From Arenibacter catalasegens (GTDB taxonomy: Bacteria > Bacteroidota > Bacteroidia > Flavobacteriales > Flavobacteriaceae), in assembly GCF_002909235.1 (NCBI RefSeq), contig NZ_PHQQ01000006.1:1-64000 (forward strand): DNA of 64,000 bases. Direction: 5' to 3'. Positions 25,507 through 28,499 of the stretch are shown here, piece after piece. A program made the translations under genes and the position numbers. Under the pieces are notes generated by a model. The model did not search any database. It saw only the letters and a program-made list of their open reading frames with translations, and was not told where the DNA came from. How positions within the stretch are numbered: the first letter of the stretch is position 1; each line of letters starts with the position of its first letter.

Positions 25507-26097
25507 ATGTCCCTTGTAGAACCTTTAGATGCCAATCATGATTCAGAGACTAGAAAGTTGGCTGAATTTTTTAATGAAACTTTGGGGTTCTGTCCCAATT
25601 CTGTTTTGACGATGCAGCATCGGCCAGCTATCTCCAAGGCATTTATTAACCTTAACATGGCCGTGATGGCGAATGAAGGCAGAGTTAGTTCGGCATTAAA
25701 GCGGATGATGGCCTGGGTAAGTAGTAATGCTACTGGTTGTCGCTATTGCCAAGCTCATGCCATTCGTGCTGCAGAGCGTTATGGAGCAGATCAGGAGCAA
25801 TTGGATAATATATGGGAGTACAGAACGCATGCTGCCTTCTCTAAGGCCGAACGTGCGGCATTGGACTTTGCCTTGGCGGCTTCACAAGTACCCAATGCCA
25901 TGAATCCAAAAATAAAGGAAGAGTTGTACAAGCATTGGAATGAAGGGGAAATTGTGGAAATGTTGGGCGTTATATCCCTATTCGGATTCCTAAATCGGTG
26001 GAACGATACCATGGGTACTACCTTGGAAGGTGGTGCTATTGAAAGCGCTAAACAATATTTGGAAAAATGTGGTTGGGAAAAAGGCAAACATGTTTAG
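25507..26097 (+). CDS. carboxymuconolactone decarboxylase family protein (AhpD-like)
   Basis: The 196-residue helical protein has C78-x2-C81-x2-H84 (CRYCQAH), the CxxC-x2-H peroxidase signature of AhpD-like CMD proteins. The later pattern AERAALDFALAAS and GEIVEMLGVISLFGFLNRW is typical of the peroxidase-related subgroup. It probably uses the thiol pair in redox detoxification rather than decarboxylation. It diverges from the OsmC gene across only 55 bp, which suggests shared control. Confidence 0.85.
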   Translation: MSLVEPLDANHDSETRKLAEFFNETLGFCPNSVLTMQHRPAISKAFINLNMAVMANEGRVSSALKRMMAWVSSNATGCRYCQAHAIRAAERYGADQEQLDNIWEYRTHAAFSKAERAALDFALAASQVPNAMNPKIKEELYKHWNEGEIVEMLGVISLFGFLNRWNDTMGTTLEGGAIESAKQYLEKCGWEKGKHV

Positions 26098-26204: not shown

Positions 26205-26278
26205 AAATAAAAAGGTAGAGCATTGCTCTACCTTTTTCCCCAAATCTTACCATGAACTTAACCTACTTATGCTATGGT
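26205..26278 (-). ncRNA. candidate small RNA, copy A
   Basis: A 40-nt block (26238-26277) is identical to 26456-26495. On the minus strand it is preceded by TACTTTTG (26290-26283), a perfect TAnnTTTG -7 box 5 nt before the block. It is followed by a 12-bp stem (26209-26220 with 26226-26237) ending in a U-run. Promoter, conserved body and terminator define a roughly 75-nt transcript. CCAT at its 5' end can pair with ATGG about 20 nt later. The family is unknown to me. Confidence 0.6.
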
Positions 26279-26420
26279 CCTCCAAAAGTATAGTAATCAA
26301 AGCCATTGGAAAAAGGTTTTAGATGAATGTCTCTTTAATAAGTTGAAATACTCCTTGTTCGGTAAACAGTTGGAAATACGGGATATAATGCATGAGAGAT
26401 AAAGTGACCGGGATTTGATC

Positions 26421-26496
26421 AAATAAAAAAGGTGGAGAAGTCTCCACCTTTTTTGCCCCAAATCTTACCATGAACTTAACCTACTTATGCTATGGC
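26421..26496 (-). ncRNA. candidate small RNA, copy B
   Basis: The same 40-nt block (26456-26495) follows TACTTTAG (26508-26501) with the identical 5-nt gap seen in copy A, and ends in a terminator stem of 14 bp (26425-26438 with 26441-26454). The stem sequence differs from copy A while its base pairing is kept, which supports selection on structure. The unit is flanked by the palindrome TTTGATCAAA at 26414-26423 and 26526-26535; the latter supplies a TTTG upstream on the minus strand. Confidence 0.6.
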
Positions 26497-26552
26497 AATA
26501 CTAAAGTACATGTGCTCAGTAGGTTTTTGATCAAATTTACGTTAAAGAGTGT

Positions 26553-26598
26553 ATTTCATCGATGAAGTGCATAAAAACCTACACTTCATCGATGAAAT
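26553..26598. repeat. perfect 17-bp inverted repeat directly after purF
   Basis: ATTTCATCGATGAAGTG (26553-26569) and its exact complement (26582-26598) enclose a 12-nt loop, 3 bp beyond the purF stop. Each arm contains the palindrome TTCATCGATGAA. The RNA would form a strong hairpin after purF, but there is no clean U-run, so it may stabilise the mRNA end or bind a protein rather than be a classic terminator. Confidence 0.75.
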
Positions 26599-26600
26599 TA

Positions 26601-28499
26601 TTAATATGCTCGTTCGTTCTTGCCTTCAAAAAAGTTGATAAATGCCCTGTTTACTACTCTATTGCCACCTGGAGTGGGATAGTTACCTGTAAAATACCAG
26701 TCTCCTAAGTTTTTAGGACAGGCTTCATGAAGGTTTTCAATATTTTGATATATAATCTGCACTTCTGCCTTAATATCGGGTGGACTTAACAATTGGCCAA
26801 TTTTGTGGGAAATCTCATCGGCTGTAAAAGGGGTGTAAAATTCCTTCACATAATTCACTACTTCGGTATCATGTGATCCGGTTTGGTTCAAGCACTTTTT
26901 ATATATTTCCTCTACAAGGTGCATAGTGTTTCTTTCTTCATGTAGTGCCAATGCAGCTCTAAAGGCAATAAAATCCTCTAGTTTGGCCATGTCTATACCG
27001 TAACAATCCGGATAACGGATTTGTGGGGCGGAGGAAACCACTATTATTTTTTTAGGTAATAGTCTATCAAGAATTCTAAGTATACTTTTTTGTAGGGTCG
27101 TTCCACGAACGATACTGTCATCTATAATTACCAGATTGTCGTTTTCCTTTACAGATCCATAGGAAATATCGTAGACATGGGCAACCAAATCGTCCCTACT
27201 ACTATCTTGGGTTATAAAGGTCCTGAGTTTAGCATCTTTTATAGCTACTTTCTCTATCCTGGGCCTCACTTCCAGAATCTCATGTAGTTCTTCCCTTGTT
27301 ATTTTCCTGCCAATAGAAAGTATTTGTTCTTCTTTCTTCTTGTTCATGTAATTCTGTGCTGCGATTACCATTCCGAAAAAGGAGGTTTCTGCAGTATTGG
27401 GAATATATGAAAATACAGTATTTTTTATATCGTCATCTATCGATTTAAGGATTAAGGGGAAAAGTAATTTTCCCAGCATTTTCCTTTCTTGATAGATTTC
27501 CTTATCACTCCCCCTAGAGAAATAAATACGTTCAAAAGAACAGGCTTTTCTTTCGGTGGGTTCTAAAATTTTCTTGAATTTAACCTTGCCATTTTTTTTA
27601 ATGATAATGGCGTGTCCTGGATCCAACTCTTTAACATCGTCGAAGCTAACGTTGAATACCGTCTGTATTGCAGGTCTTTCTGATGCCACTACTGCAATCT
27701 CCTCATCTTGGTAATAATAAACGGGTCTTATTCCCGCGGGGTCTCTAAGGACAAAGGAATCGCCATGCCCCAAAAGACCTGCCATGGCATAACCACCGTC
27801 AAAGTTTTTTGCCGCCCTCCTCAAAATTTTGGCAACATTTAATCTTTCGGCAATTATTGGAGAGGCTTCCCTCTTGTTAAAACCTTCTTTTTTAATGTCC
27901 TTATAAAGCTGTGCTACGGCATCATCCAAGAAATGCCCAATTTTTTCCATTACCGTTACGGTATCGGCCTTTTCCTTTGGGTGTTGGCCAATTTGTATAA
28001 GCTGGTCGAAAAGCTCATTAACATTGGTCATGTTAAAATTCCCGGCTACGATCAGGTTCCGGTGCATCCAATTGTTCTGCCTTAGAAAAGGATGTACGCT
28101 TTCTATGCTGTTTTTGCCAAAAGTTCCATAACGTACGTGTCCCAAAAGTACTTCCCCAATATAAGGAATGTGCTTTTTTTGTTTGGCCACGTCATTTATA
28201 TATTCTGGGTGTTCCTTAAACGAAGTATTTATACGGTCATTTATTTGGGCAAAAATGTCCTGTATAGGCTGTTGGTCTATGGATCGTACCCGACTCATAT
28301 ACCTTTCACCGGCATCCATATCCAATTTAATACTGGCAAAACCAGCACCATCCTGTCCTCGATTATGTTGCTTTTCCATCATCAAGTACATCTTGTTTAC
28401 CCCGTAAAAGGCAGACCCGTACTTCTCTTGATAATATTCCAACGGTTTTAATAACCGAATTAAGGAAATTCCACATTCATGCTTAATAGCGTCGCTCAT
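26601..28499 (-). CDS. purF: amidophosphoribosyltransferase, long Bacteroidota type
   Basis: The first step of purine synthesis: PRPP plus glutamine gives phosphoribosylamine. After a short leader (MSDAIKHE) comes C9-GISL, the N-terminal nucleophile of class II glutamine amidotransferases, with RGQDGAG and HVRYGTFG downstream. The PRPP-binding loop VIIDDSIVRGTT is in the phosphoribosyltransferase half. At 632 residues it is more than 100 longer than the usual 470-510 residue PurF, including inserts and a C-terminal extension (TGNYPTPGGNRVVNRAF). It lies 44 bp after the PfkB kinase gene, with a terminator between. Confidence 0.88.
   Translation of the reverse strand: MSDAIKHECGISLIRLLKPLEYYQEKYGSAFYGVNKMYLMMEKQHNRGQDGAGFASIKLDMDAGERYMSRVRSIDQQPIQDIFAQINDRINTSFKEHPEYINDVAKQKKHIPYIGEVLLGHVRYGTFGKNSIESVHPFLRQNNWMHRNLIVAGNFNMTNVNELFDQLIQIGQHPKEKADTVTVMEKIGHFLDDAVAQLYKDIKKEGFNKREASPIIAERLNVAKILRRAAKNFDGGYAMAGLLGHGDSFVLRDPAGIRPVYYYQDEEIAVVASERPAIQTVFNVSFDDVKELDPGHAIIIKKNGKVKFKKILEPTERKACSFERIYFSRGSDKEIYQERKMLGKLLFPLILKSIDDDIKNTVFSYIPNTAETSFFGMVIAAQNYMNKKKEEQILSIGRKITREELHEILEVRPRIEKVAIKDAKLRTFITQDSSRDDLVAHVYDISYGSVKENDNLVIIDDSIVRGTTLQKSILRILDRLLPKKIIVVSSAPQIRYPDCYGIDMAKLEDFIAFRAALALHEERNTMHLVEEIYKKCLNQTGSHDTEVVNYVKEFYTPFTADEISHKIGQLLSPPDIKAEVQIIYQNIENLHEACPKNLGDWYFTGNYPTPGGNRVVNRAFINFFEGKNERAY

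Follow-up and report, generated by a model that had tools for sequence, protein, structure and literature searches.

Multicopy small RNAs (sRNAs) that block translation starts have been described in the phylum Bacteroidota, the case in point being FopS, as presented in the excerpted text of PMC11697453. For the family Flavobacteriaceae, the excerpts of PMC9723704 report an sRNA study in a fish pathogen; there, Rfp18 of Flavobacterium psychrophilum has a strong structure, with the pairing region located in the third stem-loop, and metalloprotease targets, and the Flavo-1 motif of Rfam is given as widespread in the family.

The window, that is, the whole 64-kb stretch of Arenibacter catalasegens DNA that was analysed, contains one half of an apparent sRNA array that seems to be new, in the sense that no match was found in Rfam 15 or in the papers searched. 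The Rfam 15 search, which the initial annotation had proposed, was run at the gathering score and yielded, over the whole window, only a tRNA elsewhere and no sRNA match; below the threshold, matches to STnc40, sraA and STnc390 look to be carried mainly by the terminator stem and were rejected. Among open-licence PMC papers, we found no description of the RNA sequence, of a purF/sodA sRNA, or of a tandem or paralogous RNA of Flavobacteriaceae, Bacteroidota or Flavobacteriia. Transcript tables may already list the RNA without a name, Rfp1-89 of F. psychrophilum being one set that could include it.

Tandem units in the window and in the rest of the genome

The window pair is a 58-nt direct repeat (26233-26290 and 26451-26508, 90% identity, 218 nt from start to start), an identical stretch of which, 40 nt in length, is hereinafter called the body. 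The features of the region are as follows, A, B and C being our own labels for copy classes that are distinguished by short patterns behind the body.

26456-26495, minus strand: body (40 nt) of sRNA copy A, the purF-proximal one; covariance-model match at 26426-26500, 95.3 bits, E 5.6e-20
26425-26454, minus strand: intrinsic terminator of copy A with a T run; arms 26425-26438/26441-26454, 14-bp stem
26501-26508, minus strand: -7 box TACTTTAG of copy A, 5 nt upstream of the body
26238-26277, minus strand: body of sRNA copy B, identical to the 40 nt of copy A; covariance-model match at 26209-26282, 89 bits, E 2.2e-18
26209-26237, minus strand: intrinsic terminator of copy B; arms 26209-26222/26224-26237, 14-bp stem
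26283-26290, minus strand: -7 box TACTTTTG of copy B, 5 nt upstream of the body
26315-26353, minus strand: class-B upstream region with TTTCAAC / TTCATCTAAAACC direct repeats ~20 nt apart, read by eye; probable regulator site
26540-26598, minus strand: class-A upstream region with TTCATCGATGAA at 26555-26566 and 26585-26596 and with TTTAACG; probable regulator site
26601-28499, minus strand: purF-like gene, which shares the strand of the array and is conserved on its upstream side
25507-26097, plus strand: CMD-family gene (PF02627), the convergent neighbour at the split, where unsplit arrays have sodA

The predicted transcripts, as read from these features, would extend from ~26495 down to ~26424 (copy A) and from ~26277 down to ~26207 (copy B). 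For the purF-like gene, the best NCBIfam model is purF, at 133 bits, which is under the cut-off of 350, and Pfam indicates a glutamine amidotransferase.

The initial annotation had described a tandem duplicated minus-strand small RNA between the CMD gene and purF, with an identical 40-nt body, a -7 box at an equal distance of 5 nt in both units, and terminators that differ in sequence while keeping their pairing. Direct reading of the sequence confirms the identity of the bodies, the box indeed occupies the same position in both units, and the terminator arms, 14 nt each, are 100% complementary within each unit while their sequences differ between the units; the folding z-scores against dinucleotide shuffles are -4.25 (26421-26504) and -3.19 (26205-26286). 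The comparative evidence on promoter, terminator and body that is presented below supports the duplicated sRNA as such. The extent assigned to it is another matter: the pair is real but is not self-contained, being one half of a conserved array, the rest of which is located on contig C28.

In the 5.45-Mb genome, a 21-nt core of the RNA has 4 exact matches (backward control, 1 with up to 3 mismatches), two of these in the window and two, again in tandem, on C28 (39757-40036). The C28 pair is flanked by a superoxide dismutase gene, here called sodA (PF00081/PF02777), and a gene of the uracil-DNA-glycosylase family (PF03167), and differs in its make-up from the pair in the window: one of the C28 units carries GTTTATGG together with GGGACG, which makes it class C, and the other resembles copy B of the window upstream of the box. 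A single array is present in the Arenibacter genomes G001, G004, G007, G008 (purF out of view), G010 and G012, and two half arrays are present in the genome analysed here and in eleven other Arenibacter genomes. In 7 of the split genomes, the two halves share a contig, where they are separated by 42-108 kb and oriented oppositely, which is the arrangement expected from an inversion that broke the array. Accordingly, the window corresponds to the purF-A-B half and C28 to the B-C-sodA half, and the genus offers a natural comparison of the two.

A second, dispersed repeat occurs in the same genome (G000), at C1:11086 (L291), C2:112666 (L292), C7:3299 (L298), C37:16606 (L305) and C78:46936 (L308). 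It consists of a hairpin with a variable stem and a loop like AACGCTTATC..CCGAACACTA, plus ACAGGATCC...GTTAAGTTATGGTAAGATTTGGGG; the 3' core of the sRNA body is common to this repeat, two copies of which carry the 16-nt core without any mismatch. By reading, one copy follows a tyrosine recombinase-like ORF and one a mobilization protein-like ORF. A strict pattern of the repeat detected 1 of the 5 copies in this genome and none in 39 relatives.

Distribution and gene order of the array

With up to 3 mismatches, a 26-nt core was found in 22 of 60 genomes, the source genome included (backward control, 0), and it is present in 17/17 other genomes of the genus. The exact pattern occurs in at least 120 stretches from named genomes, which were selected for sequence identity to the body in its 3' half; the invariance of this half is partly built into that set, and the covariance-model surveys described next are less bound by such selection. 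The genera represented include Maribacter, Zobellia, Arenibacter, Allomuricauda, Robiginitalea, Eudoraea, Kordia, Cellulophaga and others, which we take to be members of the family except where the record title says so outright, and the remaining stretches come from bins called Flavobacteriaceae, Flavobacteriia or Bacteroidetes/Bacteroidota. The title of one bin (L124), Algicola, is a gammaproteobacterial name, which we consider wrong because the copies in it are adjacent to the same sodA and RecB-like genes.

A covariance model built from 58 copies (R1, threshold E up to 1e-3) detected the RNA in 240 of the 299 sampled Flavobacteriaceae genomes (~80%), the search of other flavobacteria for the body that the initial annotation had suggested being thus positive; 193 of 236 genera and 213 of 249 good genomes are covered, with 1-7 copies per positive genome, and the RNA is present also in genomes of 1.2-2 Mb. 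Among 296 genomes of the phylum, R1 matched 26 genomes of the family and one outside it, G585 (28 bits, E 0.0046), a match that resembles the body in part, lacks a T-run terminator and is taken as chance. A broader model, R2, matched 65 of 346 genomes of the order, namely, 51 in the family, whose best matches reach at least 72 bits with a single exception at 43.5, and 14 outside, none of which exceeds 35 bits; the latter are unconvincing, the 6 of 14 that were aligned having a terminator-like stem with a gapped or poor body. Viral contigs gave no match to one exact 18-base pattern, and phages and plasmids gave none with one 84-nt query each. Judged by these surveys, the RNA is carried by most of the sampled Flavobacteriaceae, almost unchanged and typically in the same place.

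The place was defined in 176 loci, among which some genomes appear twice (duplicate entries, overlapping stretches), so that the numbers of loci and copies are not numbers of independent genomes. By a mismatch test, 172 loci contain copies; L141, L207, L210 and L211 contain none by this test, and L210 and L211 are positive by the covariance model. In the 172 copy-bearing loci, purF is in view in 150, sodA in 136, both in 116 and neither in 2. Every copy with purF in view (380/380) is downstream of purF and on its strand, every copy with sodA in view (362/362) is on the strand opposite to sodA, and every copy with both genes in view (323/323) is between purF and the convergent sodA. Two loci, L117 (5232) and L121 (4308), have one solitary copy each, with the terminator present and with no purF or sodA within 8 kb.

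The usual order is purF-A-B(n)-C-sodA, that is, different promoters are combined with one body. The A-B(n)-C order is observed in 56 of the 100 loci with two or more complete copies (ABC 30, ABBC 18, ABBBC 7, ABBBBC 1), and in the same 100 loci the other orders are AB (10), BC (10), AA (14), AAA (4) and others (6). In 10 of the 18 AA or AAA loci, the body of every copy is one base shorter, a form that is seen in a large genus, probably Flavobacterium. At L055 6648-6722 (Maribacter antarcticus) and L112 5613-5680, the body is decayed in the GGTAAGATTTGGGG part or in the 5' hairpin and the terminator remains; these are likely to be dying paralogues.

Conserved elements of the units and their upstream regions

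The promoter box, sought as the pattern TAnnTT[TA][GA] in the 18 nt before the body, is present in 338 of the 365 copies that were left after removal of identical ones, at exactly 5 nt in 294 of these, compared to 56 of 1825 control windows further up. Terminator stems that reach at least 9 bp occur in 363 of 364 copies, L076 being the exception, compared to 1.1% of the shuffled tails; the 5' arms come in 110 distinct sequences, which indicates that pairing is retained although the sequence of the stem varies. The spacing of the box and the pairing of the terminator that were originally noted in the window pair recur in other copies of the family. About 38 nt of the body are nearly invariant across genera, and the upstream sequence varies by class. 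Comparison of the copies thereby marks, as far as sequence goes, the limits of the gene, its promoter box and terminator, its copy number and its locus.

Within the body, a short hairpin is possible at the 5' end (ACCAU...AUGGU, loop AUAAGUAGGUUAA), as is a G-rich single-stranded stretch, AAGAUUUGGGG. In the alignment, 96% of the hairpin cells are paired, and covariation is weak. On the first alignment, there was none; on the second one, which was fitted to the structure, 5 of 10 hairpin pairs have double changes and 0 of 500 shuffles are as good, 3 of the 7 double-change cells coming from one chance row (L202 plus strand). Without this row and a single decayed copy, double changes are confined to 3 of the 10 pairs, one per pair, and occur in divergent copies.

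The arrangement of TTTCAAC and TTCATCTAAAACC seen in the window recurs upstream of class-B copies in other genera. More generally, class B and many A copies have, by eye, TT[CT][AG][AT]C direct repeats ~20 nt apart upstream of the promoter, whereas class C lacks these repeats and has the strongly conserved TTTGTTATTTCnCACAATACCAGTAnTTTAG instead; there may be a resemblance to LytTR/AlgR sites. In the window, the repeats of copy A include the two TTCATCGATGAA palindromes, which, 30 nt apart, make up a perfect inverted repeat of 17 nt immediately after purF (26553-26598). With up to 1 mismatch, TTCATCGATGAA has 3 matches in the window against 0.18 expected, a number equalled in 1 of 100 shuffles; in other genomes, too, class-A copies are preceded by comparable sites. 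A separate pattern, TTYRTCGAT-N10-13-TTNANCG, has three other matches in this genome: one (G000:C33:11670-11697, L275) precedes, by a few bases, a putative sugar O-acyltransferase ORF, and the other two are inside or beside long ORFs. The L275 site may mark a co-regulated gene or may be due to chance.

Possible functions and comparison with known sRNAs

Each unit, located between genes, is predicted to have a promoter and a terminator of its own, as is general for bacterial trans-acting sRNAs, and we lean, if only slightly, toward the view that the units are siblings in a Flavobacteriaceae-wide family of trans-acting, base-pairing sRNAs. From the conserved features we infer transcription, a function for the hairpin, base pairing, targets and input signals along the following lines. 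Each unit would be transcribed from its own Bacteroidota-type (TAnnTTTG) promoter; the RNA, ~70-75 nt in length, would start at or a few nucleotides from the conserved body and end at its own intrinsic terminator; and the exposed, nearly invariant stretches of the body would pair with the translation-initiation regions of several mRNAs. Base pairing is held to be the most likely mode of action because of the architecture and the precedent in the phylum, FopS, in the excerpts of PMC11697453. The same body is combined with different promoter regions, and so several signals would feed one output. A more specific proposal, which we advance tentatively and with something short of even confidence, is that this is a core Flavobacteriaceae RNA with one nearly invariant output, in which promoter types A, B and C of the fixed purF-sodA array sum their signals into a common RNA pool, and that this pool controls translation initiation of many mRNAs and dispenses with an RRM partner of the Bacteroides kind. 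The genome analysed here has 0 matches to the RbpB-type RRM_1 domain (PF00076), the Bacteroides control being positive, which for base pairing as such is a point against. The presence in ~80% of the genomes, small ones included, the nearly unchanged body and the fixed locus make the RNA a strong candidate for a core regulator in a family of major polysaccharide degraders of sea and fresh water.

Several potential targets were considered. For the SusC mRNAs, the first runs, with a weaker control, were suggestive (mean z -0.82 over 29 starts; Mann-Whitney p 0.005 versus other genes), but with shuffles of the whole set, 25 of 400 shuffled bodies pair with the 29 SusC starts of this genome as well as the real body does, and 53 of 400 shuffled bodies give as large a difference in pairing between SusC and 70 other genes; this is not significant, so SusC targeting is not claimed. 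The purF start, a strong match in the window genome, was rejected as a conserved target, with 1 of 72 other purF starts, that of another Arenibacter, matching. In 20 genomes, exact 13-nt complements of the loop are off the array at 1 of 45 places (backward control, 12), and exact 12-nt complements of the G-rich part at 13 of 48 places (backward control, 6). Five of these 13 are in the genome analysed here (control, 0), 3 of them in the dispersed repeat; one of the 13, in Zobellia, is at a start codon, and the others are inside reading frames or in the dispersed repeat. The Zobellia site (L263 position 1500, G018:C16:397981) is CCCCAAATCTTATG, a 12-nt perfect complement of the body at the start codon of an ORF, and is a single case. 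No conserved strong complement to the body was found in the 20 genomes.

This lack of a conserved complement, as well as the SusC result, is what would be expected if the RNA were a genuine sRNA that acts by holding an RNA-binding regulator protein, the copies raising the number of binding sites, and the long invariance of ~38 nt across genera, with a hairpin and a G-rich single strand, fits such a role, too. We nevertheless consider it unlikely, albeit a serious contender, because there is no candidate protein, because the genome of the window has no RRM_1 protein, and because each transcript has one copy under a separate promoter rather than many sites in one RNA. That the repeats act as DNA, whether as a recombination or attachment site or as a replication- or transcription-termination element behind purF, appears improbable. 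The breakpoint that some members of the genus have within the array, with halves 42-108 kb apart in opposite orientation in seven genomes, and the occurrence of the core GTTAAGTTATGGTAAGATTTGGGG or a variant thereof in the dispersed repeat, one copy of which is near a putative tyrosine recombinase ORF, are compatible with this possibility, but a DNA site does not need an oriented promoter box and a terminator around each body, nor does it account for the uniform orientation of the copies relative to purF (380/380), and rearrangement at repeats requires no special function.

The proximity of the units to purF and their strong stem-loops could also be read as those of purF terminators or pieces of its 3'-UTR without a function of their own. 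Such a reading, however, leaves aside the nearly invariant body upstream of the stems, the box at a fixed distance, the presence of up to 7 copies and the persistence of the B-C half beside sodA, away from purF, in the split genomes, and we regard it as highly improbable. As for the short peptide MNLTYLCYG on the opposite strand, which the initial annotation had offered as a weaker alternative, an ATG is present in both window copies and in 249 of the 365 copies, but the CCATGAAC start is absent in the other 116, and the 249 copies with a start yield 228 different peptides of 8-55 residues, which reduces this possibility to practically nil and leads us to reject it. Conservation of peptide codons in place of promoter and terminator had been named there as evidence that would count against the sRNA; what was found is the opposite, with the box in 338/365 and the terminator in 363/364 copies.

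Base-pairing sRNAs of the trans-acting type, our preferred reading of the units, have their most relevant precedent in FopS/GibS of Bacteroides (RF04319 BTncRNA_FopS), which, according to the excerpts of PMC11697453, are likewise multicopy paralogous Bacteroidota sRNAs, with a 71-position model, and have their own TAnnTTTG-type promoters, a conserved 5' part and a Rho-independent terminator, as do the units described here. With respect to the conserved R1' seed of FopS, the stretch UUCAUGGUA..AGAUUU recurs in the window body; this likeness is weak, being equalled by 181 of 20000 shuffles of the Arenibacter-type body and by 11682 of 20000 shuffles of the shorter-body form, which does not share the seed. 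Membership in the FopS family was rejected, the scores being 19.8 and 16.4 bits versus a gathering score of 56, that is, weak similarity only. Unlike FopS, the array described here is tandem and locked to purF-sodA; SusC targeting is not supported by the comparison with shuffled bodies. The Rfp sRNAs of F. psychrophilum, in the excerpts of PMC9723704, come from the same bacterial family as this RNA; in contrast to Rfp18 as portrayed there, the RNA has one weak hairpin and a terminator. Flavo-1 is widespread in the same family but has no match over the window copies up to E 10. In having several paralogous copies under potentially different control of expression, the array resembles the sibling sets Qrr, OmrA/B and LhrC that are named in the excerpts of PMC11697453.
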